From the NCBI GenBank assembly GCA_011033025.1, contig WFMF01000119.1, positions 62,001-126,000 on the forward strand: a DNA stretch of 64,000 bases. Direction: 5' to 3'. The DNA comes from Beroe forskalii (lineage: Eukaryota; Ctenophora; Nuda; Beroida; Beroidae). Positions 30,227-64,000 of the stretch are shown piece after piece; the first letter of the stretch is position 1; each line of letters opens with the position of its first letter. The translations under genes and the position numbers were made by a program. Below the pieces are notes generated by a model. That model was given only the letters and a program-made list of their open reading frames with translations, had not been told where the DNA came from and did no database searches.

Positions 30227-32129
30227 ATGGCTACTTTACACATTCAAGCCAACACAGAAGTCCTGGGATTCTACCAGAAGCAAAAGGCGGAATTCCACTT
30301 CCAAGAAAAGACCGACAATGAATTTCTCATGTTTCTACTTGATACTGCTGTCAGGGTCATCTCAATAGGTTGGTTTTATGAAAAATTGGCCCTTCATTTC
30401 CGACGCACATTTTCTTCTTGATTTATACATTTCATCTTTCGACAAAAACAGTTATTTTCTCTGCACTCAATGCCCATGATTTCAGTTCAACACTTAGCAC
30501 CAGTGATAGAAGCAGTATCAGATGCCAGTGCAGATGCCAGCGAAGATATAGCTGACGATGAGAACTTTGAATCGGGTGAGTGTCCGTCAGCTGGAATTTA
30601 ACTTCTTGAGATCAAAAATTTCATGCATCGGCCGGACACTTTTTCCTCTGCTTTGTTTTTGAACTCTCAATGAATTATATCCTTTGTGGAAATCTCTGCC
30701 AGCTGAATCGAAAACTTTTCAGAATTTTCCGCAGCAGCAGGGAGTATGGAGATAGATCGTATAAACAGGGAGGTAGAGGATATCATCCAACTACCACCGG
30801 ATCCAAATCCACCGCTCTCACAGTGAGTTGACCTGGAACATCCAAGAGGGCATGTCTTGGAAATAATCATCCTACTGGCAATGGGCATGTTAAGGTTGTT
30901 CCCTCGCTGTTATTTTAGAAATTCCGATGTTTAGACACCACTCAAATTTTCTTATAACAATCACTCCCATTTATTTCAGGCCTGTACCCAAAGCGATAGT
31001 TCAGATGACTGCGCAGGAGACTCAATTCAGTGTACCTTCTCAACAACCTGTTACTCTACCTCCCGTCCAACAACCCGCTGCTCAGATATGTAGGAACTGT
31101 GTATCGCTATCAGTATTTCCCTTCTTCCTATCGTAGTACACAGCTTTTAGGAGTTTTTGTAAATTTTGTAAATTTTGACAGCGTCCTTTGCAGACATCTC
31201 TGTTTTAAAATGAACCATTGAAATTTTGACAGCGTCCTTTGCAGATATCTCTCCCAACGCCACCCGCTCCCCCGCAACCCGTCCAACCTGTCGTCGTACC
31301 ACAACAACCTGCTCCTCAGATGCCTGCCTCTCAAATCCCTGCCTCTCAACCTACTGCTCCGCTACCGACCCCCTCCGCCGTCACGCCCAAATACTCCGCC
31401 TCAATTCCGAGCAGTTCAGTGCCCGTGTCTCTGTCAGTTCGAGACATGCCGGCAGCGTCCCACCCTACCTCCGCCCCTCAGTCCACCTCGCAACCCTCCA
31501 CGTCCACCTCATCTGATGTCAACACCACAACCACCACCGCCAATAGAGACACTTCCTCCTACAACCAGTTCGCTCCGCCGCCGGACGAAGCCGAGGAGAC
31601 CACTTTGAGCGAATTCAAGGCAGAGGCAATCCCCGAAGTCGTGACTATCAAGGACGAACCGATGTCATCGTCTGACAATTCGACGCTGCTGCCCCAAGAG
31701 ACCCTTCACCACCTCATGAGTACCTTGCAGTCGAACGAGGAAAACATCGGAGTGTCGAATCTAGTCACCACCGCCCAACCTTCGTCCCTATCCTCGACAT
31801 TCCTCGACAAAACGAACAACCCACTCTCAATGCTCACTCTCTCCAACACCACTTCTAACATCAACAGCCTCTTCCCTCCCGGGGTTTCAGACAACTTGCC
31901 GGGCAGCTCCCGTTCTGGCGAACTGTAAGTCTCTTTGCAATGTGCCATGGGATAATGCGCCTGAAAAGATCAATTGATACGAAGTTTAGAAATGAATTCA
32001 CTTAACTGATTCTTAAAATGCGTAGAACTTGGATAAATTTTATGATGCTTAATTTGTACTAAAATATTTGTATTTTCAGCAAAAGTCTTATGGACAACAA
32101 AGCTGGTGGCAGTGGCTCTTCTAACCCCA
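30227..32129 (+). CDS. Constant 5' region of the zinc-finger locus (six exons)
   Basis: Exons 30227-30368, 30486-30575, 30723-30822, 30980-31100, 31245-31924 and 32080-32129 join in frame to 394 codons plus one base. The ATG is in CCTAAATGG. The N-terminus (residues 1-50) looks helical (EVLGFYQKQKAEFHFQEKTDNE). It is followed by an acidic part (DASEDIADDENFES), then a Pro/Gln and Ser/Thr-rich disordered region with two SUMO-type sites, FKAE and IKDE (about residues 275 and 286). There is no BTB, zinc finger or other DNA-binding domain. The last exon ends ...NPA with one base left over before the donor GTAAGT, exactly the phase used by the downstream variable exons. The donor of exon 4 is uncertain: GTATCG at 31101 keeps frame, the stronger-looking GTAGGA at 31090 does not. 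I infer a transcription-regulatory N-terminus shared by all isoforms. Confidence 0.8.
31174..31256 (+). repeat. Duplicated splice acceptor of constant exon 5
   Basis: AATTTTGACAGCGTCCTTTG plus CAGA(C/T)ATCTCT occurs twice, ending near 31207 and 31253. The second copy is the acceptor used for exon 5 at 31245. The first would lead into a stop codon within about ten codons in the expected frame. Confidence 0.8.
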
Positions 32130-33157
32130 GTAAGTCATCTTCTTCATCTTTAGCATGCGTGGAATGTTGCGGTTTCAGAGACAAGTTTAGGATTAATTTA
32201 ATTAATTGGGATAAGGTCCACGGTTTAGAGAATGAAGCCAGATTTCAGGAATGCAAAAATTCGATTTCAATGTTAAAATATTCTTCCTTGAATTTATGAG
32301 GCCTTTGGTCATAAATGTGTAACAATTCATGCGGCCTGATTCTGGTTTCATCTCTAGCCCAGTGCAGTGGTATGGGTTGGAGAAAATGTGAAAGATTTAA
32401 GACATCTAATTATCTTAGTATGGCTAATAGGTATTTCTTGTTCTGTCTTGTGTTGGTTGTGCTATGTTCTGTTTTGACTGTATGTTTCATTTTCAAACAA
32501 TTTCAGTTTTGGCGATTTGATTATTGTACAGAGCATTTTTCAATTTTGAGATGTTTTCTCCTCTATGTTAACTGTTTCTTGATTTTTTACCATGTGGTAT
32601 AATTATCTATGACCATGTGGTATATAATTCTACCATCTAGCTACATATGGCTGCCGTGCCATCTTCGATCGAAATGAAATTATCGTCCCTATAATGGCTA
32701 TTCGCTTAGGTGCATCATAAGCTTTTGCTTGACTGGGCAGTGTCATGCGACATCACCTTTTCTAACTCATCTTATAACCTGCTAAAGTGCTAAATTTAGA
32801 TACCTTTCTACGTTATTTACTGAGCAATTTTTTGCTGCCTTCCGCCCCTTTTTGTGGCTGAAATATCTACCTAGCACGACTACGAGACACTACTCTGATC
32901 CTGTGTAAAGGTATGTTGTCTGTCCCCCACTTACCTCAAGTCACTGATTGCGTTGATAATAACCGCAAAATCGGTCAAAAACTTCGCAATGTCAGTACGA
33001 AAAAGTACAATATGTCGCGTAATGCCTGGGCACCACGGAAACTAGTATCCACCGGCCACTTTTTCATTTCGATTTTTCTATCATGCTGCGTGTGATGTCT
33101 CAAATGTATGAATTATTTTTCTGCAACCAACTAGCTACACCCTATGATTCCTTGCAG

Positions 33158-33196
33158 TCTTGTCTTGTATTAGAATCGGACTACCAACTCACCAAG
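33158..33196 (+). other. Candidate 39-base cassette exon
   Basis: The acceptor CCTTGCAG and the donor AAG|GTAAGC bracket 39 bases. Thirty-nine is a multiple of three, so entering in phase 1 the reading frame stays open (LSCIRIGLPTHQ) and leaves in phase 1, compatible with both the constant region and all variable exons. It is only a splice-site argument; no domain supports it. Confidence 0.25.
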
Positions 33197-33921
33197 GTAA
33201 GCTTGTACAGTGGATGAGAGAGCACGGCATCATTAGATCCTCTGTCCGTTACTCGTCTCAAATATCACTTCTCGTGTATGTGAGAGTCTGCTATGAATCC
33301 TTGGCGCGAAAAATTGGCGGTTCAACTTACCACATTGCGCTATGATAATGACTTCATCTTAACCGCCTATTTATTCCTTGTGCATATTAGTGTCCGTGTG
33401 TGAATGTAAGGTAGCTCTCTCTAACTACTTTCTCCCCTCGGTAACTCGTTGATGTTAATATAATTGCTGGCTGGTGGCGCCGTCTCAAGTTACCAGCCGC
33501 CTCAGGGTGTTAGTTACACTCGCACACTAACTACCACCACTAATGTATGTATGTATGAATGAAATATGCTATCCTGCTCAGGTAACATGTAGAATGTATA
33601 ATGGTGTGTAAACGCAAAGTACATAGACGATCTTTCCTCAGGAAAATGAGAACTCCAAAATTTGAGAAGGCAAAATATAAGCCAGTGCCAAATGAAGCAT
33701 TTTTCAAAGCCCTGCCGCTTAATTTCATGTTAAATTGATTTTCCAAATTAAGTAATTTTGTGGCCTGATTGCCTAATTTTCTGCTTGCTAAACTCCTGCA
33801 ATGTATAGTGTGTACACTCACTATCTCAATAAGGAAAACCTTCGCTCTGCAGAGCCCTACTCTAGGCGACGCTCAGACTCACCCACTTTATTAAAGTACC
33901 GTCTAATATGGACGGCGTATT

Positions 33922-34027
33922 AGCTTACCTACCCGTAGGATCCATAAATCGTCATTGACCATTCAGCACACGAGTTTGTGGCAAACTCGGACGCTGATTG
34001 GTCGATGACAAATGGACCTGTGAGTAC
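33922..34027. mobile_element. MITE-like inverted repeat, copy 1
   Basis: Arms of about 50 bp pair: GATCCATAAATCGTCATTGA and GACCATTCAGC on the left, GCTGATTGGTCGATGAC and AATGGACC on the right. The left flank GGCGTATTAGCTTACC matches the end of the copy at 36979-37112, so both belong to one family. Confidence 0.6.
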
Positions 34028-35629
34028 CATCTAGTGACTAGTCACTATTCTTTCCCTCTAGCCTAATTACTGTGCTTTGAATCATGTATCTATTTGTATA
34101 GAATGTATTATGGGACAATGCCCTTTAGATCGAATAAATGGCCAGTATTAGGGTGAGTATACTGAACTGTTATACTTTGGAAGCTCTTGGCCCACGTTAA
34201 AAACTTATTCTCTGAAAAATGAGTTCCAAAAACCTGGAATTTACACAGTGACTTGGGTTAAGTGGGTCTGTTTGTGTGCCTTTAGTAAATATGCTTTATT
34301 GCGTGTTTTTGAAGTGTGGTTAGTAACTGTCAGTCATTGTGCGTGTGTTTGAAGTGTGGTTAGTGGGTTTCAGTCATAGGGCGGGTGGGAGGGATATTTT
34401 TCTGATAAATTCAACATCCTGCACAACCAGAAAGGCTAAAAAAGTGTTTCATTATGATTTTGATCACAATGTAATTATCCAGTAAGGGTTTGTAATTGGT
34501 TAAAAGTTAGGGCCTGCGGCCCTAGTGAAATTGAAAATCTTCTAATAAATCTTTATTTCATAAAAATGCAATGATAATTGAGAACAGTGGTATTCTAATA
34601 TTTTATCGGTTGTGCAGGTTTTTGAATTTAATCAAATGATAGATTTAGGAATATTCTGTAAGTGTCTCTGAGACTGCTTCATATATAATTTCCACCATGC
34701 GACCTGGAGTGAGGCAGGGTTTTATCTAGACGCATAAATTAAGCATACATCAATTAATCAATTATGAATTAAATTGTGGAATTATGTGCATGTTGAAAAT
34801 TTATGGAATTGTGCAGATTTAAATTAAATCATACCCTGATGAAAGTGTACAGGAAATAAAAATTGGCGGCGTCACATTTGTGGTAAAATATATTTCCCAA
34901 CTGCATATTTAATGAAATATGATATTAAAGTTTTTAATCACCGATAGTTCTTAATCAAAATCCTGCCTCATTTAAAATTATAATTTAATTCATATTTTTA
35001 AATTGTTGCTTATCCTCGATGTATCATTCTGTAAAATATAATGGACGTGTTTTATTCTCCGATCTAATTTTCACTCAAGTGATTTTCTCTTTCAATAGAC
35101 TCAACGTTTTACGGTAATCAGCCGTATTTTCTGGTGACTGGTTCTGTCATAATCTTGTGAAAGTTTAGCCTGAAAATATTTCCTTATGAAATAAATTATG
35201 GTCGGTTGAGACGCCTTATTATGGTCCAAAGTTATAAATAATCAATTGTTATGCTTTGGAAGATCAATTACCAAAAGAAAAACTATTAACTAACGTTGTT
35301 TTGCGTGCGGCTTTCAATGTTTATGATACACCGAGGATACAGTTTATTCGATTGATTCGATTGATAGAGTACAAAACAATATTGAGGGTTAGAAAATTTA
35401 CCGCTCATAAGCAATTTTGCTCGAAATTTTGCTGTGAAATAATTTCAGTACTCTATCAATCTTTTTATATCATTCATTGATGTTCTGATTTTTGAACCCA
35501 TGAAACTTACTTTTGCGAATCGTGATAGACGATTTTTATCCTTTGGTTATGTGGGTTCATACTATTCTATTTCCGAGAAATCCCGAATTCCCGAAACACC
35601 AACTCGCAGAAATAAAGGGTTTTTGGAGG

Positions 35630-35727
35630 TCTCGTTCGAATAATTGGCGACTGAGAGTGACGTCATCGTCAAGGTCTGAAATAACCATTTGGTGACGTCA
35701 TATCGCCATTTTCCTCGAACGAGTCTT
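35630..35727. mobile_element. Small inverted-repeat element
   Basis: CTCGTTCGAATAATTGGCGA with GTGACGTCA on the left pairs with TGACGTCATATCGCCATTTT and CTCGAACGAG on the right. It is about 98 bp with no ORF. Confidence 0.55.
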
Positions 35728-36639
35728 CGTCTTCCTGACATTATTCAGGAACAATGGATAACCTTTTACATGTCAACCTGCGTGGTACATGCGGATTGAC
35801 GAATTCTGTGTGTTGGTTGCTCAGGATTTGTCTAGTTTATAATATACATTTTATTCATTGCATTTCATTGATTAATAAATCAGAGGAAACGAAAAATCAT
35901 ACGCATGGCATTGTGCCAACCAACGTCGCATCAGCTTTACCACCCACTCACTCTGCTTTCAATACATATCTGATCTTGAGTTATTTCCCTTCATTTCCAG
36001 ATGATAAAAATAGCAAATGTTTATGATTTTTCTGTTCCTCTTGTCACTTCATTGCATGTAAATCATACAACAAAATTTGCATAAAGCCAATTTAAATAGG
36101 TGGGCAATTTGCATCAATTTTTAGGGGTAAAAACGCGAATCCATAACGTCGAATGCCATAGAATCATTCAAATTGTCTTGAAATTATAATTGCGGCCAGA
36201 TGAATGCACAAATTAGTTAATTAAATCTTGAGGTCTGGACGCTCGATTAAAAGTTAAATGAGTTGTTTTCCAAGATTTTAACTTTTAAGGGGTATATTTT
36301 GATACTTTAATAACGTTTTGGCTCTAAATTATTAACGACTTGTTTGATTGTTATTTGAGTATTTGTGAATATATTTGATGAATTCTGCTTTGTGCTTTCT
36401 GAGTCTGTCTTCATAAATCGACTTGTATCTATAAACATCGACTGGTGAGTTTAATTCCTGCGGTACACACTGAAAGCAGGATTCTGAAGACACCTCGGGG
36501 GATCAATCAGGTTCTCCACAGGAAAGGTGTCAGTGTCAGATTAAAACCCAGCCCTTAATTTCACTCTGTTATTATATTACTTTTTTCACTGTACCGGGTC
36601 CATATTGTACGAAATTCACCTTATAATGAGTTCTATAAA

Positions 36640-36760
36640 GCCATGTACATGTACATATTGTAGTGGTGTACATGAAATCTGTGTACAATGTACAACGTAT
36701 AATGTACAGTGTACAGTGCACTGCACATGTCCTGCGTGTATAATGTACGATGTACATGCG
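36640..36760. repeat. TGTACA-rich stretch
   Basis: Many overlapping TGTACA and GTACAATG hexamers in loose tandem. Similar stretches lie near 55793-55850 and 56378-56425, just before variable exons V25 and V26. Confidence 0.6.
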
Positions 36761-36978
36761 TCCTGCCCACATCTTATCTAGGGGTATACACTGAGCAGTG
36801 TATACCGGGAATGTATTCACTACACACTGCAAGTGTTAATTGCGCCACTAACACCTTCACTCAACGATCTGCTGAAGTATATGTGCTCGGCAGGCCGGTA
36901 CCAATTATACCAAATATGGTATAACTCGGCTAAAGTCGTGTGTGTGATGCCGGGTTTCATTTATCAGCAGCTAATGTT

Positions 36979-37112
36979 GTCGGCGTATTATAGCTTACCC
37001 ATTAGATCCATAAATCGTCTTGACATTGACCAATCAGCGGGAGAGTTAACGCTCAACTCGCGTGCTGATTGGTCAATGGAAAAGGACCTGTGGGTAAGCT
37101 TATACGCCGTCG
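36979..37112. mobile_element. MITE-like inverted repeat, copy 2
   Basis: The termini TCGGCGTATTATAGCTTACC and GGTAAGCTTATACGCCGTCG are inverted copies, and internal ATTGACCAATCAGC pairs with GCTGATTGGTCAAT. It is about 134 bp with no ORF. Confidence 0.7.
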
Positions 37113-37862
37113 ATAATTGTAGATTATAGAAATTTAATTATGTGATGGTATTCATGTATCGTGCGAATCAGTTGAAATATGTGTGGGACAATTTTGCAGC
37201 ATTAACTGCACGACTAGCACATTTCGCGGGAGAGAGCCATGCAAAGTAGGGGGTTCATTAAGGATAATGTTAGCATTTAAGCGGCCGACTTGAGGATGTG
37301 GTTTCGCGGTATTTTAAACGGATGGTATGTAACCCTGAGGGTTCAACAACATGCAGTCATTACTAGGGATTTAGGGTTAAACGGTTGATATTACACACGA
37401 GTATCGTAAAATGGTTATATTATGGTTAAGATACTATTCACATTGAAATTGCCCTCATTTTCGATAATTCCTCTTTTTGTTATCTAACACAATGAATAAG
37501 ATTTATTTTATTCATATTGTAATCACTGTTCTAGGGCCATGAAAATTGAACGCTATTGTACATTTCGTAATAATAAATTGTCCATTTGCTGTGTTCTGTT
37601 ATCAACTAAAAAACTTAAAATCCTGCATGAAATGTGTTTTATTGACTAAATTATGATACATCGATAGCTAAGATACTGATTTAGTTCTTCCATCAAAACC
37701 AAAGTCCAAAAAGAACATTTTTGTCCGCTTGATATCAAGCTACGTGTAACGTCGGCCATCAAATTTTCCATCACTCCCCACATCTCCTATCCCATCTTCT
37801 CTCCCACTCTTCTCCCACTCCTCCTCTCCCACTCCACGGCCCTCCTAACGGCGGCTTCTCAG

Positions 37863-38098
37863 GCGGCCTTATCCCAAAGGCAGCGCCACCTGCCCGTACT
37901 GCGGCGATTCCTACCTCAACGTACGCCGCCATGTGATCTCTGTACACCTCAAAACACCGCCCGTTCCGGTGCCACTTCTGCGATAAGAGCTTTACTCAGA
38001 GCGGGCATCGTCTCAGCCATATGAGGGAGAAGCACAATTTCCAGCAGAAGTTCAAACGCAGAGCAAGAGGATTGGATGAAAAAAGAACTACGATATGA
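37863..38098 (+). pseudogene. V1: decayed zinc-finger exon, two frame lesions
   Basis: Acceptor TTCTCAG. Two fingers can be read only by changing frame. Finger 1 (CPYCG...HVISVH) is out of phase with the acceptor, and after HLK there is one extra base in the run AAAA, so finger 2 (CHFCDKSFTQSGHRLSHMREKH) sits in yet another frame. The C-terminal QQKFKR segment matches V2, its nearest relative. AATAAA follows at 38181. It is a dead or dying copy; a sequencing error could explain only one of the two lesions. Confidence 0.75.
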
Positions 38099-38555: not shown

Positions 38556-38797
38556 GTGGTAGGAAGAGGAGCTATATTTACTCCAGAAAATGTGAGTTCT
38601 GCGGCAAAATAGTGAAGGGTTCACCGTCCAACCTACAAAACCACATTAACGCAGTGCACTTGCAACGACGCCGCTTCCAATGCCACTTCTGCGAGATGAG
38701 ATTTACTCAAAGTGGGCATCGGCTTTGTCATATGAGGAAAGAACACAATTACCAGCAGAAGTTTAAACGCAGCCGGAATACGGGAAACAAAGAATGA
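38556..38797 (+). CDS. V2: variable terminal exon, two C2H2 fingers
   Basis: Acceptor CACACAG, phase-1 entry giving S-G-R-K-R. Fingers: CEFCGKIVKG...HINAVH, then CHFCEMRFTQSGHRLCHMRKEH, joined by LQRRRFQ. The basic tail NYQQKFKRSRNTGNKE is followed by TGA. AATAAA at 38993 supports a terminal exon. It is closest to V1 and V3. Confidence 0.85.
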
Positions 38798-39141: not shown

Positions 39142-39437
39142 GCCGCCGTCCACGTAGTAAGAAGAAGAAGCACGGCACCAATCTTCAAATCTGCGAGCAC
39201 TGCGGGAAGAAAGTCAAAGGCTCGCCCTCCAACCTCCGTGCTCACATCAACGGGGTCCACTTGAAAGTGCGGCCCTTCAAGTGCTATTTCTGTGACTTGA
39301 CGTTCACTCAGAACGGCAACAGGAAGAGCCACATGCGGAAAGAGCACAAATTTCTGCACAATAAGAATGATCCCAAAATAAATATAGATGGCGAGGATTT
39401 GATGGCTGAAGTGGTCACGGAATTCGTTTATCAATGA
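39142..39437 (+). CDS. V3: variable terminal exon, two C2H2 fingers
   Basis: Acceptor CCACGCAG, phase 1. A basic leader (RRPRSKKKKHG) looks like a nuclear localisation signal. Fingers: CEHCGKKVKGSPSNLRAHINGVH and CYFCDLTFTQNGNRKSHMRKEH. The acidic tail ends VVTEFVYQ. The 388 bases to V4 hold only ATTAAA (39763) as a possible poly(A) signal. Confidence 0.85.
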
Positions 39438-39825: not shown

Positions 39826-40115
39826 GTATCAAGGCCCCCTACGCTCTGTTCGAGCGGCGATGCGAGTTCTGCGGTAAAACATTTGCAGGCTCGGACTTCA
39901 AGCTGCAGCGCCACGTGGCAGCCGTCCACCTGCAGCACCGACCTTTCCCCTGCCAGCTCTGTGAGAAGAGTTTCAACCAGAAGGTGCACCTGCAGCGTCA
40001 TGTCGACATTGTACACATGAAGCTCAAGCCGTTCCACTGTGGCGTGTGTGGCAGCAGTTTCGCTACGAAGTGCAATAGAAACCATCACGAGAAGAAGTGT
40101 AATATCCGAGGGTGA
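39826..40115 (+). CDS. V4: variable terminal exon, three fingers (last C2HC)
   Basis: Acceptor CCACGCAG, phase 1. Fingers: CEFCGKTFAGSDFKLQRHVAAVH; CQLCEKSFNQKVHLQRHVDIVH; and CGVCGSSFATKCNRNHHEKKC, whose last ligand is Cys instead of His. The linker HMKLKPFHC introduces the third-finger arrangement shared by V5-V10. TGA overlaps the start of AATAAA (40116); another lies at 40329. The exon end has been duplicated downstream (40140-40230). Confidence 0.87.
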
Positions 40116-41020: not shown

Positions 41021-41088
41021 CGTTTATATCAACTATCATTGGAATACATTTAATCCAGCTGATCCATGTTTTGATAATCCACCCACAG

Positions 41089-41406
41089 GTAAGAAAAGGC
41101 TTCAAACGTGTAAATACTGTGGAAAGCAAGTGAAAGGATCGCCTTTCAACCTCCGAATGCACATCAACTCAGTCCACCTAAAAAATACGTCCCTTCAAGT
41201 GCCAACTTTGTGATAAGACATTCAATGAGAAGTCCCATCTGCAAACCCATATCGACATCATCCACATGAAGATGAAGCCGTTTAAGTGCAGGTTTTGTGA
41301 AAAGTCCTTCACTACGAAAGGTAATCAGAAAAGCCACGAGAAAAAAGCTCATGGTGATGAAATGGAGGAAATAGAGGCTACCGAAGAAATAGGTGATCTA
41401 TCCTAA
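41089..41406 (+). pseudogene. V5: zinc-finger exon with +1 frameshift
   Basis: Acceptor CCCACAG, phase 1 (SKKRLQ). Finger 1 (CKYCGKQVKG...HINSVH) is intact. After HLK the run CTAAAAAATACG has one base too many, and translation ends at TGA (41216-41218). In the shifted frame the remainder is perfectly conserved to a stop at 41406: CQLCDKTFNEKSHLQTHIDIIH and CRFCEKSFTTKGNQKSHEKKAH plus the EEIGDLS tail. The break is therefore recent, or an assembly or allele error. Intron sequence before it (CCAGCTGATCCATGTT) is shared with V11. Confidence 0.8.
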
Positions 41407-41663: not shown

Positions 41664-42034
41664 GTAACGATGTGGAATTGCAGCCTCCCATTTTTGTAAA
41701 TTTGAACCATCCGGATAAGTCAAAGAGCGTCCAAAAGTGTCATTATTGCGGTAAAATTGTGAAAGGGACGCCTTGTAAACTCCAAAACCACATCAACTCA
41801 GTCCACCTTCAAAAACGTCCCTACAAGTGCCACCTATGTGATAAGCGCTTCAATCAGACAACCCATCGGCAAACCCATATCAACATTGTCCACATGAAGC
41901 TGAAGCCGTTTAAGTGCAGGTTTTGCGAAAATTTCTTCGCTACAAAGGGTAATTTAAGGAAACACGAGAAAATAGCTCATCTTGATGGAATAGAGGAAAT
42001 AGAGGATACCGAAGAAATAGGTAATCTATGTTAA
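41664..42034 (+). CDS. V6: variable terminal exon, three C2H2 fingers
   Basis: Acceptor TCCCACAG, phase 1 (start may be off by one base). The leader SNDVELQPPIF...PDKSKSVQK is typical of V6-V10. Fingers: CHYCGKIVKG...HINSVH; CHLCDKRFNQTTHRQTHINIVH; CRFCENFFATKGNLRKHEKIAH. The acidic tail ends EEIGNLC. No canonical poly(A) signal is seen before V7. Confidence 0.87.
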
Positions 42035-42291: not shown

Positions 42292-42689
42292 GTAGCGATG
42301 TGGAGTTGCCGCCTCTTCCCACTTTTGTAAGTTTGGAGCCTTCCATTCCAATAACCGATGATGACCGTCCGGATAAATCAAAGAACGTCCAAAAGTGTGA
42401 TTATTGTGGCAAACTTGTAAAAGGGACGGCGTCTAGGCTCCAAATGCACATCAACACCGTCCACCTACAAAAACGTCCCTATAAGTGCCACATTTGTGAT
42501 AAGAGATTCAATCAGAAGAACCATCGACAAACCCATATCGACATTGTCCACATGAAGTTGAAGCCTTTTAAATGCATGTATTGTGAGGATTGCTTCCCTA
42601 CGAAAGGTAATCTAGGGAAGCACGTGAAACTAGCTCATCCTGATGAAGTAGAGGCTAACAAAGACGTCTCACAGGACCCTCTGCAATGA
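42292..42689 (+). CDS. V7: variable terminal exon, three C2H2 fingers
   Basis: Acceptor CCGCCAG, phase 1. Leader SSDVELPPLP...ITDDDRPDKSKNVQK. Fingers: CDYCGKLVKG...HINTVH; CHICDKRFNQKNHRQTHIDIVH; CMYCEDCFPTKGNLGKHVKLAH. Tail KDVSQDPLQ. A TTAA-flanked MITE follows the stop. V7 with V8 forms the block duplicated as V9-V10. Confidence 0.87.
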
Positions 42690-43396: not shown

Positions 43397-43914
43397 GTAA
43401 CACTGTGGGGTTGCTGCCACTTCCCACTTTAGTAAGTGTGAAGCCTTCCATCTTACTCACAGTTGATAACCTCCCAGGAAAGTATAAGTACGACCAAACG
43501 TGCAAATACTGTGGCAAGCTGGTGAAAGGGTCGCCTTGTAAGCTCCGAATGCACATCAATTCAGTCCACCTACAGCAACGTCCCTATAAGTGCCACCTCT
43601 GTGATAAGAGATTCAATCAGAAAAGCCATCGGCAAACCCATATCAACATCATGCACATGAAGCTGAAGCCGTTTAAGTGCAGGTTTTGTGAAAATTACTT
43701 CACTACAAAGGGTAATTTAAGGAAACACGAGAAAATAGCCCATCCTGATGAAATAGAGGAAACAGATGCTACCAAAGAAATAGGTAATCTCTCTTATTCA
43801 TCTTTAACGTATCTCAATTTTGTTAAATCATTGTCGAAAGTTTCATCAACTAATTCAGCAAAAATTGGAAACGAGCGGATATCTCTTATTTTTCTTGAGT
43901 TGGAATATCATTAA
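43397..43914 (+). CDS. V8: variable terminal exon, three C2H2 fingers, extended tail
   Basis: Acceptor CCACATAG, phase 1. Leader SNTVGLLPLPTLVSVKPS as in V10. Fingers: CKYCGKLVKG...HINSVH; CHLCDKRFNQKSHRQTHINIMH; CRFCENYFTTKGNLRKHEKIAH. After EIGNL, where V6 stops, the reading frame stays open for about 37 more codons to 43914, a C-terminal extension made from former 3' UTR. Confidence 0.86.
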
Positions 43915-43966: not shown

Positions 43967-44382
43967 ATAACGATGTGGAGTTGCAGCCTTCGGGTGATGA
44001 AGTAATATGTGACGGCTCCCTAAGTGTGGAGCCTTCCATCCCAATCACCGATGATTTTCCCCCGGATGAGTCAAAGAATGTCCAAAAGTGTAGTTACTGT
44101 GGCAAAATTGTGAACGGCACGGCTTCTAGGCTCCGAATGCACATCAACACCGTCCACCTTCAAAAACGTCCCTACAAGTGCCACCTTTGCGATAAGAGAT
44201 TCAACCAGAAGACCCATTGACAAACCCATATCGACATTGTCCACAAGAATCTGACCCCGTTCAAGTGTCGGTTTTGTGAGGATTGCTTCACTACATAAGG
44301 TAAACTAGGAAAGCACGTGAAATTGGCTCACCCTGATGAAATAGAGGCTACCAAAGACGTCTCAAAGGGCCCTCTGCCATGA
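43967..44382 (+). pseudogene. V9: zinc-finger exon with premature stops
   Basis: Acceptor CCACACAG, phase 1. Leader NNDVELQPS. Finger 1 (CSYCGKIVNG...HINTVH) is intact. Finger 2 stops at KTH* because CATCGACAA of its relatives is CATTGACAA here, turning an Arg codon to TGA (44218-44220). A second stop (TAAGG, where relatives have AAAGG) breaks finger 3, which also lost ligand spacing (HKNLTPFKC). Homology continues to the ancestral stop near 44382. It is the duplicate of V7. Confidence 0.85.
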
Positions 44383-50265: not shown

Positions 50266-50600
50266 CTCGAAGATCCTTCAGCTGTCCGTACTGTAACAAA
50301 CTGATCTGTGGCTCTGTTTCCAACCTAAAACGCCACATCGGTGCTGTCCACATGAAACTCAAACCGTACAAGTGTCAGTACTGCGAGCTGAGCTTCACCC
50401 AGGCCGGATCCGTTATTACTCACGAGAACAACGTCCACAAGGACGCTTTCGAGGGGGATTGGTCTCGCAGGAGTTCGGCAAAGAGTCAGAATGTGTTCGA
50501 GGGGAACGCCCTGATCAGGAGGCTGGAGGAAGGGAATAGGGTCAGACGGGAGTACAGGAGTCGGGAGAGCAGGGGGAGGGCGGCATCTGAGGAGACCTGA
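50266..50600 (+). CDS. V18: variable terminal exon, two C2H2 fingers, long charged tail
   Basis: Acceptor CTTTCAG, phase 1 (T-RRSFS). Fingers: CPYCNKLICGSVSNLKRHIGAVH and CQYCELSFTQAGSVITHENNVH. The tail of about 55 residues is rich in Arg and Glu (RRLEEGNRVRREYRSRESRG), probably helical or disordered. Confidence 0.86.
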
Positions 50601-50915: not shown

Positions 50916-51166
50916 GTTGTAGCTACTGTGGACAAGTTTTCTGCACCCGAGGCTCACTAAGACGACACATAGCAACCATCCACCTCTGCAAACGACCTTA
51001 TAAGTGTCTATTTTGTGATGTCAGGACGGGCGAGAGTGGGAACATTCTGAAGCACATGAAGCGCATGCATTCGGCCCGTTTTTCCAAACACAAGGAAATG
51101 TACCCAGACTTCAGGATGTCCAAGGAAGAGACTGATGATAGTGAACAGGGAAATGATACCGCGTGA
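50916..51166 (+). CDS. V19: variable terminal exon, two C2H2 fingers
   Basis: Acceptor TTCGACAG, phase 1. Finger 1 starts almost at once: CSYCGQVFCTRGSLRRHIATIH; finger 2: CLFCDVRTGESGNILKHMKRMH, with the linker LCKRPYK. Tail SARFSKHKEMYPDF... ends NDTA. It has no start codon of its own. V19-V21 share the second finger almost exactly. Confidence 0.86.
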
Positions 51167-51417: not shown

Positions 51418-51716
51418 GTGCCTCAATAGATTCCCGCTGGAATTGTGATTTGTGTCAGAAGGTGTACAGCAGTCAACGCGCTCTAAGACGCCATATTGAC
51501 ACCATCCACCTCTGCAAACGACCTTATAAGTGTCTATTTTGTGATGTCAGGACGGGCGAGAGTGGGAACATCCTCAAGCACATGAAGCGTATGCATTCGG
51601 CCCGTTTTTCCAAACACAAGAAAATGTTCCCAGATTTCAAGATGCCGAAGGAAAATACTGACGTCAGTGGAAAGGAAATTGATTACGCATTAGCTGGATT
51701 TAGTCAGGATAAATGA
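51418..51716 (+). CDS. V20: variable terminal exon, two C2H2 fingers
   Basis: Acceptor CCTCTCAG, phase 1 (S-ASIDSRWN). Fingers: CDLCQKVYSSQRALRRHIDTIH and CLFCDVRTGESGNILKHMKRMH. Tail SARFSKHKKMFPDFKMPKEN then a unique end. AATAAA at 51940-51945. Confidence 0.87.
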
Positions 51717-52035: not shown

Positions 52036-52286
52036 GTGTTCTGTTGACATCCCCCTTCGTTTGCCATTTGTGTCAGAAGGCGTACAGCAGTCAGCCCGTT
52101 CTCAAACGCCATATTGACACCATCCACCTCTGTAAACGACCTTATAAGTGTCTATTTTGCGACTTTAGAACGGGTCAGAGCGGAAATCTCATCAAACACA
52201 TGAAGCGGATGCACGCTGTCCGTTACTCCAAACACAAGGAAATGTTTCCAGGATTCAGGATGGCTTCATCAAAGGACGGGAAATGA
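52036..52286 (+). CDS. V21: variable terminal exon, two C2H2 fingers
   Basis: Acceptor CTCTCCAG, phase 1 (S-VLLTSPFV). Fingers: CHLCQKAYSSQPVLKRHIDTIH and CLFCDFRTGQSGNLIKHMKRMH. Tail AVRYSKHKEMFPGFRMAS. Confidence 0.87.
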
Positions 52287-52627: not shown

Positions 52628-52884
52628 GTGGCACATCATCGCTTCTCTGTCAACTGTGTCTCAAGTACTACAGTAGTCAGCCCGTTCTCAAGCGGCACAT
52701 TGACACCGTCCACCTCAAGAGATGCCGGGTTAATTGTCCCTACTGCCCGGTATCCTTCGCTCAGAAGGGCAGCATGTATCTGCACATGCGGAGAGCTCAC
52801 CCGGAGCAGTACAGAGCGTGGAAAGAGTATAAGGTGGTCTCGTCTGGTGGCGGTCGTTCTGATAAGAGTCATAGTGGTCAGTGA
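52628..52884 (+). CDS. V22: variable terminal exon, two C2H2 fingers
   Basis: Acceptor CAACGCAG, phase 1 (S-GTSSLL). Fingers: CQLCLKYYSSQPVLKRHIDTVH and CPYCPVSFAQKGSMYLHMRRAH, linker LKRCRVN. Tail PEQYRAWKEYKVVSSGGGRS ending SGQ. Finger 1 is close to V21, finger 2 is not, suggesting recombination or fast divergence. The exon end is duplicated downstream. Confidence 0.85.
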
Positions 52885-54141: not shown

Positions 54142-54372
54142 ATCTGGAGAGGAAGCAAGTGTGTCCCTTCTGCTACAAAGTGCTCGCTAACGCCCCCAAC
54201 TTGGCGTCACGTCTCCGCCGTTCATCGTCGTCTCAAACCGTACGAATGTCAGTTTTGCGGTAAAAAATTTGCTGACCCGAGCGCCTGTAAAAGACACGTG
54301 AAGGAAACGAAGAACTGTATCATTACAAGGACCAAGAATTACAGTGAACTTGCTAAGATTGAACCGTCTTAA
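54142..54372 (+). pseudogene. V23: zinc-finger exon with one-base deletion
   Basis: Acceptor AATCTCTAG, phase 1 (LERKQV). Finger 1 begins CPFCYKVLANAPNLA but one base is missing in AACTTGGCGTCAC; relatives read NLARH. After the loss the frame meets TAA at about 54262. In the restored reading frame RHVSAVH, then CQFCGKKFADPSACKRHVKETKNC, continue cleanly to a stop at 54372. AATAAA at 54855. Confidence 0.8.
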
Positions 54373-55047: not shown

Positions 55048-55361
55048 ATTCCACGATTCGCATTCAGCCAGATGACCACGTGTGCAGGATCTGTAACAGA
55101 CCCTTCCCCCACCGGCAAGCCCTGGTCTGCCACCAGTCCGTGGTCCACGGAGAGACCCCCGTCAAGCTGAGCAAGTGTCCGCACTGCCAGACCGTCATGT
55201 CGACATCCAGGTCGCTCCAACGACACATCACCGCCGTGCACCACCGACTGAAACCGTACAGCTGTGAGTTGTGCGGCAAGAGTTTCGCTGATCCGAGCTC
55301 GTGTAGGAGACATTTGAAGAAGACGTGTAGTGTGGCGAGGAAGAAACAGTGGTTACAGTGA
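55048..55361 (+). CDS. V24: variable terminal exon, three fingers (last C2HC)
   Basis: Acceptor TCCCCAG, phase 1 (N-STIRIQPDDHV). Fingers: CRICNRPFPHRQALVCHQSVVH; CPHCQTVMSTSRSLQRHITAVH; CELCGKSFADPSSCRRHLKKTC, the last with Cys as fourth ligand. The tail is a short basic stretch ending KQWLQ. The region around its stop is duplicated downstream. The 650 bases before it hold only AATAAA of V23. Confidence 0.87.
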
Positions 55362-55850: not shown

Positions 55851-55930
55851 CCTAGAAATGTCAAAATGGTTCCCATTCTGTAGCATGTGACCTGTCAAAT
55901 GTCCCAATGTCCGTACTCTCCGTATTTCAG

Positions 55931-56109
55931 ACAATTTATGCTCGTTTTGCGGCAAGACGTATTACAACTCTCACGGCCTAGAACGCCACATTAACGCGGT
56001 ACACCGATGTCTGAAACCCTACAAATGTGATTTGTGTGGGGCTGCGTTCTCTGACCCCAGCTCGAGACTTCGACACATGAGACTGAGAAGATGCAAGATC
56101 TTCAAGTAG
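55931..56109 (+). CDS. V25: variable terminal exon, two fingers (last C2HC)
   Basis: Acceptor GTATTTCAG, phase 1 (N-NL). Fingers: CSFCGKTYYNSHGLERHINAVH and CDLCGAAFSDPSSRLRHMRLRRC. Ends KIFK then TAG. No start codon of its own. AATAAA at 56422-56427. Confidence 0.86.
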
Positions 56110-56449: not shown

Positions 56450-56598
56450 ACACCAGAATACACTGCAGCATGTGCGACAAGCAAGTTTACCCTCGCAACT
56501 TGAAGCCCTACAGCTGCAATTTGTGCGGGGCTGTCTTCTCAGATCCTAGTCCTAGGAACAGACACATGAGACTCAAGAGATGCAAGCAACCCAAGTGA
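56450..56598 (+). CDS. V26: variable terminal exon with truncated first finger
   Basis: Acceptor ACATTTCAG, phase 1 (N-TRIH). The first finger keeps its Cys pair (CSMCDKQVYPRN) but lacks the helix and both His, running straight into the linker LKPYS of finger 2 (CNLCGAVFSDPSPRNRHMRLKRC). An in-frame deletion relative to V25 of about 33-36 bases explains this. The frame is otherwise open to TGA. AATAAA at 56748-56753. It may be functional with one finger, or decaying. Confidence 0.75.
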
Positions 56599-57370
56599 TC
56601 GTGAGACGTGTGATGCTTGGAGTGCTCAATGATGAGAACAGCGTGATGCTCAAAGAGGTGTGACGTGTGTACAAATTGGCGCGTGGTATGGCCTGGCAAC
56701 TTTGGTGTCTGAAATGTACGTCAAATAGCGTGACATATTTTGATTTTAATAAAGAGTGTGACATGTGAAAGGCAGAACAGTTAAATTATTATTTTGTTTT
56801 CAATTATAAAAACTTTATTGTATGAACTATTTACCGTTTTTATATTTCAGACGTATCAAGTATAAAATTCAAAGTTCAATCATGAATTTGTATTGAGGAC
56901 AGCTGCTATAATATGTCAACTTCAACTTATTTTTTTATTATAAAAGGGTAGTTTATTATATTTATTCCGTTAAAAAGAATCCATTACCCGATCTGTTTCT
57001 TGTATTACCAGAAAATAATATTATGTATACCTATGTTACTATCAAATATTACTTAAAATAATTTATTTATTTTTGTGACAAATTTAAAACCTTTTAATTA
57101 GTCTCGGGGTGTGGGTTTTGTTCTGAAGAAATGTTTTGCAAATTTCTACTCGACTGGTAATTTAACAAATATTTCATTGAAAATTAAGTTGTAAATTGTG
57201 GGAAATAAAGCAATGTTTCCGGGGAAATTTATTTGCAACAAAAATCCATTTGATAAATATTTTCATCTAAAGCCACACAGACCTCAGTTATTCATCTCAA
57301 CCCAATTTCATTCTCCATCGATCTTTCCGATATCTTCCAATGCGCCCTTATTTATGAGTCTCACTAATAC
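56599..57370. other. AT-rich spacer between V26 and the V27 minisatellite
   Basis: No finger is encoded. A lone acceptor-like TATATTTCAG at about 56851 opens a phase-1 frame of only a dozen codons (VSSIKFKVQS), possibly the remains of a lost exon. Confidence 0.4.
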
Positions 57371-58557
57371 AATGCCCCCTTATTTCAGATTACCACCTTC
57401 AATGCCCCCTAATTTCAGATTACCACCTTCAATGCCCCCTAATTTCAAAGCACCACCTTCAATGCCCCCTAATTTCAAAGCACCACTTCCAATGCCCTCT
57501 ATTTTCAGAATACCACTTCCAATGCCCTCTATTTTCAGAATACCACTTCCAATGCCCTCTATTTTCAGAATACCACTTCCAATGCCCTCTATTTTCAGAA
57601 TACCACTTCCAATGCCCTCTATTTTGAGAATATCACTTCCAATGCCCTCTATTTTCATAACACCTCTTCCAATGCCCTCTATTTTCAGAATACCACTTCC
57701 AATGCCTCCTAATTTCAAAGCACCACTTCCAATGCCCTCTATTTTCAGAATACCACTTCCAATGCCCCCTAATTTCAAAGCACCACTTCCAATGCCCTCT
57801 ATTTTCAGAATACCACTTCCAATGCCCTCTATTTTCAGAATACCACTTCCAATGCCCTCTATTTTCAGAATACCACTTCCAATGCCCCCTATTTTCAGAA
57901 TACCTCTTCCAATGCCCTCTAATTTCAGAATACCTCTTCCAATGCCCTCTATTTTCAGAATACCACTTCCAATGCCCTCTATTTTCAGAATACCACTTCC
58001 AATGCCGGGCCTATTTTCAGAATACCTCTTCCAATGCCCTCTTATTTCAGAATACCCCTTCCAATGCCCTCTAATTTCAGAATACCCCTTCCAATGCCCT
58101 CTATTTTCAAAATACCACTTCCAATGCCCTCTATTTTCAGAATACCACTTCCAATGCCCTCTATTTTCAGAATACCCCTTCCAATGCCCTCTAATTTCAG
58201 AATAATCCTTCCAATGCCCTCTATTTTCAAAATACCTCTTCCAATGCCCTCTATTTTCAGAATACCACTTCCAATGCCCTCTAATTTCAGAATAATCCTT
58301 CCAATGCCTCCTAATTTCAAAATACCACTTCCAATGCCCTCTATTTTCAGAATACCACTTCCAATGCCCTCTATTTTCAGAATACCCCTTCCAATGCCCT
58401 CTAATTTCAGAATAATCCTTCCAATGCCCTCTATTTTCAAAATACCTCTTCCAATGCCCTCTATTTTCAGAATACCACTTCCAATGCCCTCTATTTTCAG
58501 AACACCTCTTCCAATGCCCTCTATTTTCAGAATACCACTTCCAATGCCCCCGGTGCC
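57371..58557 (+). repeat. 30-bp minisatellite made of V27 splice acceptors
   Basis: About 39 tandem copies of CCAATGCCCTCTATTTTCAG plus AATACCACTT, the last of which is the true acceptor and start of V27. Most copies keep the pyrimidine tract and AG. The unit is 30 bp, so all frames stay periodic, which creates long spurious ORFs on both strands. In the V27 frame each copy reads YHFQCPLFSE. Copies with AATAATCC instead of AATACCAC place TAA in that frame (near 58201, 58291 and 58411), so only the acceptors before 58471, 58501 and 58531 give an open extension into the fingers. Confidence 0.92.
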
Positions 58558-58744
58558 CTAAAGTCTTCACCCGGTGCTACAACATGAAGGCTCACGTCCG
58601 GACAGTCCATGAGAAGTTGAAACCGTACCAGTGCACCAAGTGTGGTCGGATGTTCGCTGATTCCAGCAACTTTAGGAAGCACACCCGGCGATTGTATTGT
58701 GAGAGTACTAGAACTAGAACAAGTGTTGATCGGAGAGTCATTTA
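58531..58744 (+). CDS. V27: variable terminal exon, two fingers (last C2HC)
   Basis: Acceptor CTATTTTCAG, phase 1 (K-YHFQ). Fingers: CPRCPKVFTRCYNMKAHVRTVH and CTKCGRMFADSSNFRKHTRRLYC. Basic tail ends SVDRRVI, then TAG. It is flanked on both sides by minisatellites grown from its own ends. Alternative acceptors 30 and 60 bases upstream would add 10 or 20 residues in frame. AATAAA at 59303-59308. Confidence 0.85.
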
Positions 58745-59113
58745 GTGGCATCTAGAACCAGTGTTGATCGGAAACTTATTTAGTGGCAAGTCTTAATCCG
58801 AGACTCATTTAGTGGTTTGGATAATCGGAGACTCATTTAATGGTGCGTAGAACCATTTCTGATCGGAGACTTATTTAAAAGCAACTAGAGCCAGTCTTAA
58901 TTAGAGACTTATAAAGTGACCACTTGAACCACTATTGAGGCGACTTATTCAACGTGACTACTTGAACCAGTATTGATCGGAGACTCCTTTAATGGCAACT
59001 AGAACCAATATTGATCGGAGACTTATTTAGTGGCAACGAGAACCAGTATTGATCGGAGACTTATTTAGTGGCAAGTAGAACCAGTATTAACAATTGGAGA
59101 CTTATTTATTGTG
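58699..59113 (+). repeat. About 42-bp tandem repeat grown from the V27 stop region
   Basis: About ten imperfect copies of AACCAGTATTGATCGGAGAC plus TTATTTAGTGGCAAGTAG. The first copy includes the last codons and TAG stop of V27 (AACAAGTGTTGATCGGAGAG, TCATTTAGTGGCA). Confidence 0.8.
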
Positions 59114-59951: not shown

Positions 59952-60006
59952 TATTCTGGATTCTCAACAATATTCCGTATTCCTTAACCCCGTTTCCCAC
60001 TCCCAG

Positions 60007-60236
60007 GACCGCAGGCCGGCTCCAAATGTCCGCACTGCTACAAGTACCTCTCCTCCAACTCTAACCTGGCTCGACATGTCAACTCCGTGCACCGCCGTCT
60101 CCGAACTTTCATCTGCGTGAACTGTGGCAAGGGCTTCTGCGACCCGAGTGTGTTGCGACGTCACATCAAGAACGCGTGCTGCGCTGAGGACAGGTCCACT
60201 AAAGGATTTCCTCATCAAGATTTCCTCAACAACTAG
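60007..60236 (+). CDS. V28: variable terminal exon, two fingers (last C2HC)
   Basis: Acceptor CACTCCCAG, phase 1 (R-PQAGSK). Fingers: CPHCYKYLSSNSNLARHVNSVH and CVNCGKGFCDPSVLRRHIKNAC, linker RRLRTFI. Tail ends HQDFLNN then TAG. No start codon of its own. Confidence 0.86.
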
Positions 60237-60683: not shown

Positions 60684-60928
60684 ATCCTGTTCCATCCAAC
60701 TCTACAGATTCGGCTGCAACGCAGTGTCACCTGTGTTCCAAGAAGCTGTCCAACCCCCAGAAGCTGAGCAATCACATCGAAATCGTGCACTACGGCATCA
60801 AGAAGTACCGATGTTTCGTGTGCAAGCGTCCCTTTGGGGATGTCAGCAACTTGAAGCGGCACGTCAAGCGACAACACAGCGACCGGGCTGCTCTCTGGGT
60901 TGAGAATCACAAGAATTTGAGATTTTGA
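60684..60928 (+). CDS. V29: variable terminal exon, two C2H2 fingers
   Basis: Acceptor AATCTTCAG, phase 1 (N-PVPSNSTDSAATQ). Fingers: CHLCSKKLSNPQKLSNHIEIVH and CFVCKRPFGDVSNLKRHVKRQH, linker YGIKKYR. Tail DRAALWVENHKNLRF then TGA. The spacer 60929-61409 shows nothing else. Confidence 0.86.
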
Positions 60929-61409: not shown

Positions 61410-61612
61410 TTCGACGAGTGCACACCTGTGAGATCTGCCGGAAGACCCTGACAACGGCCCACAGCCTCCGACAGCACACGGAGACAATCCACTTTCAGCG
61501 ATGTCTCAACATGAGACGACATGTCAGGAGACAGCATTGTATGGACAACAGTGCCATGTCAGAAGACCCTTCAGCGATGTCAGTAACATGAGACGACATG
61601 TCAGGAGACAGC
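61410..61612 (+). pseudogene. V30: zinc-finger exon with rearranged second finger
   Basis: Acceptor GCGTTTCAG, phase 1 (I-RRVHT). Finger 1 (CEICRKTLTTAHSLRQHTETIH) is intact. The following sequence jumps from HFQRC to LNMRRHVRRQHC, the C-terminal half of a V29-like second finger, so the Cys pair is missing. The phase-1 frame then ends SAMSVT* at about 61591. A second copy of this half-finger with CHVRRPFSDVSNMRRHVRRQ lies just downstream in another frame, so a duplication at TTCAGCGATGTC scrambled the exon. Confidence 0.75.
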
Positions 61613-62090
61613 ATTGTGTGGATGTGGACAGCACGGTGTGACATGTCAGGAGACAGCATTGTGGAGATGTGGACAGCACGGTGTGACATGTCAGGAGACA
61701 GCATTGTGTGGATGTGGACAGCACGGTGTGACATGTCAGGAGACAGCATTGTGTGGATGTGGACAGCACGGTGTGACATGTCAGGAGACAGCATTGTGGG
61801 GATGTGGACAGCACGGTGTGACATGTCAGGAGACAGCATTGTGTGGATGTGGACAGCACGGTGTGACATGTCAGGAGACAGCATTGTGGGGATGTGGACA
61901 GCACGGTGTGACATGTCAGGAGACAGCATTGTGGAGATGTGGACAACACGGTGTGACATGTCAGGAGACAGCATTGTGGGGATGTGGACAGTAGAGTGTG
62001 ACATGTCAGGAGACAGCACTGTGTGGATGTGGACAGCACGGTGTGACATGTCAGGAGACAGCATTGTGGGGATGTCGATAGTAGAGTGAG
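61590..62090 (+). repeat. 45-bp minisatellite from the end of the V30 finger
   Basis: About eleven copies of GACATGTCAGGAGACAGCAT plus TGTGTGGATGTGGACAGCAC and GGTGT. The unit contains the end of the second finger (HVRRQHC) and, in that frame, a TGA. Since 45 is a multiple of three, other frames stay open on both strands; those ORFs (MSGDSIV or MLSPDMSH units) are artefacts. Confidence 0.9.
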
Positions 62091-62554: not shown

Positions 62555-62880
62555 CCTCCTCCTCGTCTGTGAGATTCTCCTGTGAAATCTGTCAGAAGTC
62601 CCTGGCAACCAATAAAAACCTGCAGCTTCACATCGACGTAGTGCACCGCGGACTACGCAACTTTGTGTGTGGCGTTTGCGGGAAAAGGTTCGGAGATCCG
62701 AGTAACTTGCGACGGCACAAGAAGTGTGCCCACGGTTATATGGGGAAGAAGGTGTCAGCCACACAGGTGGATAACCTTGTGCAGTGGATGCAGAGTGAGA
62801 TTGGAGGGGGCATGATGGTGGTGGAAGGACAGCAGAGCGCTTCCAAGGGACCTGAGGAAGAAAATGTTGATATTTGCTGA
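62555..62880 (+). CDS. V31: variable terminal exon, two C2H2 fingers
   Basis: Acceptor CATTTCAG, phase 1 (T-SSSSVRFS). Fingers: CEICQKSLATNKNLQLHIDVVH and CGVCGKRFGDPSNLRRHKKCAH, linker RGLRNFV. Long tail with KKVSATQVDN and an acidic end (EEENVDIC). AATAAA at 63056-63061. The 460 bases before it are AT-rich and featureless. Confidence 0.87.
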
Positions 62881-63134
62881 ATTTCTGCGTATGTTGGAGA
62901 CTGGAACAATATGAACATGAATATTTTAAATCAGTGTTACGCATTTCTAATTGGGACAATTTATAACTTATTTTATTTGGCTTGAAGTTTTGACTCACTC
63001 AAGTAGTAATGAGATTCCTGGAGCTTCTGTTCGATCGAACTTGGCAATGAAACTTAATAAATGAAATATCTCTGACCTTTGCTCACTTCGTCACTTCAAT
63101 CTTTCCGGTAATTTGAAACTAAAAACCCCCGCAG

Positions 63135-63503
63135 GACAAGGAAAATCCGGCAAGAAACTGTTCACATGTGAATATTGTGATAGGCAGATGAAGCACAAAT
63201 CCCACATGACCCAGCACATTAAAACAGTCCACCTGAAGTTGAAACCTTTCAAATGCCCGTCCTGCGCGGCGGGTTTTGCCAAGAATGCGGACCTGCAACT
63301 TCACATCGACGTGGTGCACCGTGGAATACGCAAGTTTGGGTGTGGCGTGCGGGAAAAAGTTCGGAGATCCGAGTAACTTGCGACGACACAAGAAGTGTGC
63401 CCACGGAGCCAGTAAGAAGGTGTCAGCCACACAGTCGGTGGAAGAACAGCAGAGCGGTTCCAAGGGGCCGGCTACTGAGGAGGAGAATGTAGATATTGGC
63501 TGA
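63135..63503 (+). pseudogene. V32: exon with two intact fingers and a frameshifted third
   Basis: Acceptor CCCCGCAG, phase 1 (R-QGKSGKKLFT). Fingers 1 and 2 are intact: CEYCDRQMKHKSHMTQHIKTVH and CPSCAAGFAKNADLQLHIDVVH. In the third, GGCGTGCGGG lacks two bases compared with V31 (GGCGTTTGCGGG), so the frame ends at 63376. In the shifted frame KKFGDPSNLRRHKKCAH and the VSATQ...EEENVDIG tail continue to 63503. The product would still carry two fingers. AATAAA at 63683-63688. Confidence 0.8.
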
Positions 63504-63843
63504 ATATAGGAAGACCGAAGAGTGTAGTCGAGATTTGTTGATCGATTTAGACATGGACAGTTTTACTATATGTCACATAATAACTAATGTTTTATTGGTT
63601 TACTCGAATATTTGAGTTTCATATTCTCTGTTTTAATGGTCACTAGCTCTGTGCCACAGCTCCCTATGTATTCTTACAGAAAAATAAAATTGATGAATTA
63701 AATTAAAAAGCCAAATCGATAATGCTCGGGAATGCATCTTCTAAAGGGAATGGGCCGTTCACTTTCTTGGGTCATCTGGCAGCATGGTTATAGAATAAAT
63801 CACAGCCTTATCATAAAACTCACTCAAATTCCGTACCTTTCAG

Positions 63844-64000
63844 CATTCTCCGACTCTTCCTCTGGTAAATACCAATGTGAATATTGTTCCAAGTCCATAT
63901 CGAGGCTCCAGAACTTACGACTTCACGTCGATGTCGTTCACCGGGGTATTCGCAAGCACGTGTGCGGCGTGTGCGGAAGAGAATTCGGGAGTTCGAGTAA
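63844..64000 (+). CDS. V33: variable exon, cut by the window edge
   Basis: Acceptor CCTTTCAG, phase 1 (T-FSDSSSGKYQ). Finger 1 is CEYCSKSISRLQNLRLHVDVVH, and finger 2 begins CGVCGREFGSSS before the window ends. It is a close relative of V31 and V32. It shows that the array extends further to the right. Confidence 0.85.

Follow-up and report, generated by a model that had tools for sequence, protein, structure and literature searches.

How could one gene supply dozens of proteins that share an N-terminus and differ in the end that binds DNA? The question is raised by a zinc-finger locus of the ctenophore Beroe forskalii, which occupies positions 30227 to 64000 of a 64,000-nucleotide (nt) stretch of contig WFMF01000119.1 (assembly GCA_011033025.1, contig positions 62,001 to 126,000, forward strand; hereafter the window, whose own numbering is used throughout). 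On the + strand of the window, six short constant exons (30227-32129) are followed by a 5.7-kb intron and then by 33 finger exon copies (37863-64000). An initial annotation had proposed that these copies serve as alternative ends of a single constant region, as in Drosophila lola and mod(mdg4). Our analysis suggests, with a probability of about 0.77, that the finger exons serve as alternative terminal exons of a single transcription-factor gene and that, on the simplest view, they are joined to the constant region by cis-splicing.

Zinc-finger exon copies on one strand

Between positions 37863 and 64000, the strict finger pattern C-x2-C-x12/13-H gave 66 matches on the + strand and none on the - strand, against a mean of 0.12 and a maximum of 1 in 50 shuffles; the preceding part of the window (1-37862) held none on the + strand and one on the - strand. 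These matches bear out the annotated 33 same-strand copies over 26 kb. The copies are separated by a median gap of 431 nt, and the last of them (63844) is open to the window end, so that the array does run off the window. An intact frame from the acceptor to the copy's own stop was found in 26/33 finger exons, in line with the minimum of 26 that had been claimed, though one of these (56450) has only one complete finger. The annotation had further assigned an own stop to 32 of the 33 copies, which holds with an intact frame for these 26; the other seven are mis-framed, interrupted, one-fingered, frame-leaving or cut.

To describe the encoded fingers, we aligned 27 copies, namely the 26 intact ones and the one truncated by the window end. 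The alignment has four invariant cysteines, and its usual plan is two fingers, the first often with 13-residue spacing. It comprises 58 fingers: 19 copies have two, 6 have three and 2 have one (one of the latter being the window-cut copy). Four copies were scanned against Pfam, and at least one finger family scored above its curated cut-off in each; FLYWCH was absent from the matches listed for these 4/33 copies at an expect value (E) of up to 0.1 (for one copy, the best 25 of 30 families). An AlphaFold model of finger exon 2, computed with the 27 copies as alignment, shows two finger-like units (mean predicted local distance difference test score, pLDDT, 82.8). A fold search with this model returned ordinary C2H2 proteins (best ZBTB7A, E 4.1e-4), as did a comparison of the finger sequence profile with the PDB (best Zinc finger protein 568), matches that speak to the fold and not to the family.

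A shared entry phase

The curated acceptors, which were chosen partly by eye, end in YAG in 33/33 copies (31 CAG and 2 TAG, i.e., C or T at position -3), and when all AGs of the window are ranked by score, their median falls at the 95th percentile. From these sites the first finger is entered in phase 1 in 32 of the 33 copies, in agreement with the initial annotation, the exception being the first copy (37863; phase 2). Because the curation was partly by eye, we used as a control a phase-blind choice, in which every AG in each open frame was scored by a generic acceptor matrix and the best was taken. This choice gave phase 1 in 30/33 copies, phase 2 in three (37863, 38587, and 39158) and phase 0 in none, and it picked the curated site in 29 of the 32 copies curated as phase 1. 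The binomial probability of 30/33 is 8e-12 if 1/3 is expected and 3e-9 if the expectation is the local AG background, 0.41; both values overstate independence because the copies are duplicates. A more cautious view is offered by the distance from the acceptor to the first cysteine, which in the 32 phase-1 copies ranges from 2 to 122 nt and takes 18 distinct values, all of them 2 mod 3.

Starts, donors, and stops

An in-frame ATG between the acceptor and the first finger is present in only 1/33 copies. We also counted conceivable first coding exons belonging to the copies themselves, defined as an ATG, at least 10 codons and a phase-1 donor in the stretch preceding a copy; with donors of at least 3, 2, and 0 bits there were 0, 1, and 2 of 33, against 1.3, 2.8, and 6.6 in 50 shuffles. 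At the other end of the exons, a donor between the last finger and the stop was found in 2/26 intact copies with a threshold of 2 bits and in 7/26 with one of 0 bits. Given few starts behind the acceptors and few donors before the stops, most finger exons appear to need an upstream donor and to end the protein, and the scarcity of donors before the stops suggests that they are not easily joined to one another. A general shortage of donors in the array was also considered and rejected, since thresholds of 3 and 5 bits are failed by four and five of the six constant-region donors, respectively.

On the + strand of the array only two donors reach 6 bits, one opening finger exon 5 and the other finger exon 11. 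These two related exons (41089 and 45912) start with CAG/GTAAGA, that is, with an acceptor fused to a donor, an arrangement described for recursive splicing (PMC8605326). Such starts might let the splice be redone farther downstream, or they could be plain coding sequence. GT forms the first bases of 12/33 finger exons.

Composition and growth of the array

The array, all of it on the + strand, opens with a broken copy, finger exon 1 (37863-38098), whose best acceptor is in phase 2. Intact exons 2 (38556-38797; the modeled copy), 3 (39142-39437), and 4 (39826-40115; three fingers) come next. They are followed by exon 5 (41089-41406), whose two fingers lie in different frames, as they also do in exon 1 and in exon 23 (54142-54372). 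Exons 6 (41664-42034), 7 (42292-42689), and 8 (43397-43914) are intact with three fingers each, as is exon 10 (45095-45477), and between them stands exon 9 (43967-44382, end approximate), with an in-frame stop within its second finger. A long run of intact exons extends from 11 to 22: 45912-46126, 46597-46814, 47328-47536, 47965-48155, 48449-48699 (exon 15, the single copy in which an ATG lies in frame between acceptor and finger), 48962-49215, 49481-49755, 50266-50600, 50916-51166, 51418-51716, 52036-52286, and 52628-52884. Beyond exon 23, the intact exons are 24 (55048-55361; three fingers), 25 (55931-56109), 26 (56450-56598; the copy with one complete finger), 27 (58531-58745), 28 (60007-60236), 29 (60684-60928; second in-phase acceptor at 60708), and 31 (62555-62880). 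Exon 30 (61410-61591) is open and has one finger, its stop lying just before a minisatellite; exon 32 (63135-63376) encodes two good fingers and then loses the frame; and exon 33 (63844-64000) is the copy cut off by the window end.

Two minisatellites adjoin these exons. The one at 57370-58549 consists of about 39 copies of a 30-bp unit directly before finger exon 27, and its unit contains the acceptor TTTTCAG; it holds 29 TTYCAG sites, 14 of them in phase 1, and only from the last three does the frame stay open as far as the finger. The other (61595-62075) consists of 10.7 copies of a 45-bp unit just 3' of finger exon 30, the unit resembling, by eye, the end of a finger.

Similarity between copies drops with distance along the array (Mantel r -0.41; 0/2000 permutations as extreme), and the closest relative lies at most two places away in 23/27 copies, which together point to growth by local tandem duplication. 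Close finger copies show purifying selection. Among the 13 closest intact pairs, the 11 defined ratios of nonsynonymous to synonymous substitution (dN/dS) fall between 0.10 and 0.45, and the median over the 87/325 pairs with a defined dS is 0.39, with two values above 1. The array appears to be losing some members. Predicted DNA-contact signatures, based on assumed contact positions of a finger, are all different (27 distinct in 27 aligned copies). In 12 close pairs, 43/120 contact positions differed versus 98/309 other positions; there is no clear excess at contact residues, and we therefore make no claim of diversifying selection.

The constant region and the long intron

The six constant exons comprise 394 codons. 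Exon 1 (30227-30368) carries the start codon, with an in-frame TAA directly 5' of the ATG; despite this TAA, an alternative first coding exon farther 5' is possible. It is followed by exons 2 (30486-30575), 3 (30723-30822), and 4 (30980-31100), the 3' end of the last being uncertain (31089 or 31100; the frame-consistent donor at 31101 scores -6.85 bits), by the long exon 5 (31245-31924), whose coding sequence is rich in glutamine, proline, serine, and threonine (Q/P/S/T), and by exon 6 (32080-32129), which ends in phase 1 at the donor gtaagt. A codon-usage score trained on three neighboring genes was highest in the used frame for 5/6 constant exons (1, 2, 3, 5, and 6), with its top value in exon 5; exon 4 scores higher in another frame, which carries two stops. 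Donor scores for exons 1-6 are 0.24, 6.86, 2.37, -6.85, 2.37, and 3.16 bits. The initial annotation had described a six-exon region ending in phase 1; exons 5 and 6 do give phase 1 at 32129, whereas exons 1-4 are not cleanly in frame with exon 5.

In a comparison of the 394 amino acid translation with Pfam, no family was matched at E up to 0.1, and no BTB domain was found. When modeled alone with AlphaFold from its single sequence, constant exon 1 is predicted to form two helices (mean pLDDT 82.7), a product too short to identify. A local duplication (31089-31245) puts two similar acceptor regions at the exon 4/5 join, and exon 5 has an in-frame ATG at 31320.

The intron between the last constant exon and the finger array (32130-37862, + strand) begins with the 3.16-bit donor at 32130. 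No donor that belongs to clearly coding sequence lies nearer to the array, and the exon end at 32129 would be the obvious upstream phase-1 donor for the finger exons. We searched this 5.7-kb intron for docking sequences shared with 32 acceptor regions, using exact matches only. No 9-mer was complementary to four or more of the regions, and at k=8 no complementary match occurred in more than 5/32 of them, the same number as for the best same-sense 8-mer. The motif AATCCAC, which occurs 14 times on the + strand and twice on the - strand, lies within 150 nt upstream of an acceptor in 12 of the 14 + strand cases. All 12 precede exons 2-11, which are mutually related, and we therefore read the motif as inherited by duplication and set it aside as a selector signal. 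The intron also holds two diverged copies of a 60-bp element (33953-34012 and 37024-37083), 72% alike, which match each other in reverse complement as well (78%); this is perhaps a small mobile element.

Probable alternative terminal exons and competing explanations

In the arrangement that we favor, the six upstream exons would encode a constant N-terminus with a short helical start and then a long Q/P/S/T-rich stretch without a known domain. The donor at 32130 would be joined to one finger exon per transcript; the chosen exon would be the last coding exon and, ending at its own stop, would give the isoform its DNA-binding end, mostly of two C2H2 fingers and sometimes of three. Local tandem duplication would have enlarged the array and left neighbors alike. 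The shared phase, the near absence of starts, the paucity of first exons relative to shuffles, the 26 own stops, and purifying selection all argue for this reading, and the interpretation in the initial annotation is well supported by them. The anatomy, the phase, the scarcity of starts and donors, the purifying selection, and the differences in predicted contact residues are seen in the sequence; from these we infer the join from 32129 to an acceptor, which the initial annotation too had called an inference, as well as its formation in cis, the ending of the transcript by each exon, and the binding of different DNA by the isoforms.

Several observations weigh against this reading. Donors of at least 2 bits in the array are about as frequent on the + strand as on the - strand (42 vs. 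44), and in 15/32 copies such a donor lies in the interval that starts 60 nt into the exon and ends 150 nt beyond the stop. The splice-site weights are generic and untrained; they are insensitive here, four of the six constant donors scoring below 3 bits, so that all donor counts are rough. Polyadenylation hexamers are not enriched, AATAAA following finger exons in 16 cases versus 15.2 expected, and AATAAA or ATTAAA occurring in 18/32 gaps versus 16.9 expected. The long intron also contains two further donors, of 2.1 and 3.0 bits, each preceded in phase 1 by a short open frame with an ATG. At least 4/33 finger copies are broken, and in 8/26 intact finger exons codon usage scores higher in another frame, but those frames carry stops. 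Finally, within the constant region, the best donor of exon 4 (31090) is out of frame with exon 5, with one base left over; the AGs near the start of the exon 5 open frame (31233, 31245, and 31320) need zero leftover bases; and the frame-consistent donors for this join score -6.2 or worse. The mismatch could stem from an error in the assembly, from a small exon that was missed, or from separate initiation within exon 5. It does not touch the phase in which the fingers would be joined, which is set by exons 5 and 6 only.

The same proteins might instead be made in trans, if promoters of its own drove transcription of all or part of the array and the constant exons came from a separate RNA by splicing. 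Trans-splicing is described for the two fly loci with this layout, mod(mdg4) and, in part, lola (PMC12692577, PMC1947980), and it is thought likely for mod(mdg4) of A. gambiae, whose exons lie on one strand, as they do here (PMC4667647). The choice of exon is moreover unexplained by any enrichment of polyadenylation hexamers or by an exact-match docking signal. However, the finger exons found are all on the strand of the constant region and come immediately after it, so trans-splicing is not required and cis-splicing is the simpler assumption; the mod(mdg4)-like genes of Daphnia, a beetle, and hymenopterans are described as cis-spliced (PMC4667647). We therefore regard production in trans as unlikely. 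Less probable again, and in our estimate very unlikely, is that the copies are, or once were, independent tandem zinc-finger genes with no connection to the gene upstream. Such a cluster would suit the clear tandem duplication, the broken copies, and the 11/33 copies whose open frame contains an in-frame ATG at any point ahead of the finger, but ten of these 11 have such an ATG only 5' of the acceptor. Shuffled gaps yield more candidate first exons than the real ones do, the real gaps are short, and separate single-exon genes would give no reason for the shared phase and the consistent YAG acceptors. The common entry phase in 32/33 copies would also fit splicing of the finger exons to each other into one long poly-finger protein, and a phase-1 donor of at least 0 bits does precede the stop in 5/26 intact copies; yet all 26 have their own stop, and before it there is no donor of 2 bits or more in 24/26 and none of 0 bits or more in 19/26, which makes a poly-finger protein highly improbable.

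Neighboring genes

With its introns and its animal-type genes, the window has a eukaryotic look. The array and its constant region stand downstream of several other coding regions. Kelch repeats were identified with Pfam at 2759-3130, a TAF5-like protein is encoded at 17489-19447 (+ strand; the best PDB matches are TFIID subunit 5 chains), and a MINDY deubiquitinase domain lies at 20347-21600 (Pfam). Head to head with the constant region, the - strand carries an 802-codon single-exon open reading frame (26600-29005) without a Pfam match. A tRNA search of the window under bacterial settings found none, an Rfam search of the window gave zero matches, and two neighboring proteins scanned against viral contigs had no relatives there.

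Comparison with known systems

The locus resembles lola and mod(mdg4) in anatomy and phase: a constant 5' part precedes many 3' exons that share an entry phase, and the variable exons have their own stop (26/33 intact). The lola gene is described as having a constant N-terminal region and alternative 3' exons, with at least 20 isoforms, most of which carry one or two zinc fingers (PMC5127561, PMC1947980). A constant 5' part followed by 3' exons with mostly one or two fingers is the point of likeness, whereas lola has a BTB domain in its constant region, where none was found here, and the terminal exon copies are more numerous here (33, at least 26 of them intact). For mod(mdg4), the combinations reported number 31 in D. 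melanogaster, 9 in B. mori, 40 in D. plexippus, 41 in P. xylostella, 35 in A. gambiae, and 34 in A. aegypti (PMC4667647), and the fly gene is described as trans-spliced from separate promoters, partly on opposite strands (PMC12692577). The 5' exons of mod(mdg4) are likewise constant and its 3' exons alternative. It differs in its BTB N-terminus and mostly FLYWCH ends, in contrast to the C2H2 ends and the absence of a detected BTB domain here, in its trans-splicing in flies and moths, and in the spread of its exons over both strands in several species (though not in A. gambiae, where they lie on one strand), whereas a single strand is used here. Because no BTB domain was found, the likeness to these genes that had been pointed out is one of architecture only, and membership of their class is not supported.

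Other tandem arrangements are less similar. Dscam-type arrays consist of tandemly duplicated, internal, mutually exclusive exons in shared phase. The finger exons share with them the tandem duplication and the common phase, but look terminal, and the exact-match search found no pairing element shared between intron and acceptors. Clustered protocadherins also combine one constant part with many variable exons, but there the variable exons are 5', whereas here it is the constant part that is 5'. The protocadherin variable exons are described as using alternative promoters (PMC4835542).

TTK-type BTB domains, as in lola and mod(mdg4), were found only in Arthropoda by one study (PMC11426971), and no BTB-less locus of this kind was among the matches listed in the open-access literature (titles and abstract openings, with most subscription papers outside this range). 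It is possible, and we put it forward tentatively as somewhat less than an even chance, that the design of lola arose independently here. A transcription-factor gene without BTB would have had its last exon tandemly duplicated to more than 33 interchangeable DNA-binding tails, all attached to one constant N-terminus that carries a helical interaction element of its own, and the animal would lie outside the groups in which loci of this type are known. The best-documented loci giving tens of transcription factors from one constant region are lola and mod(mdg4). If the reading is true, a locus without BTB but with about as many tails would mean that the design can do without that domain, and its compact one-strand layout would make it a natural test of whether ordinary cis-splicing can choose among dozens of terminal exons.

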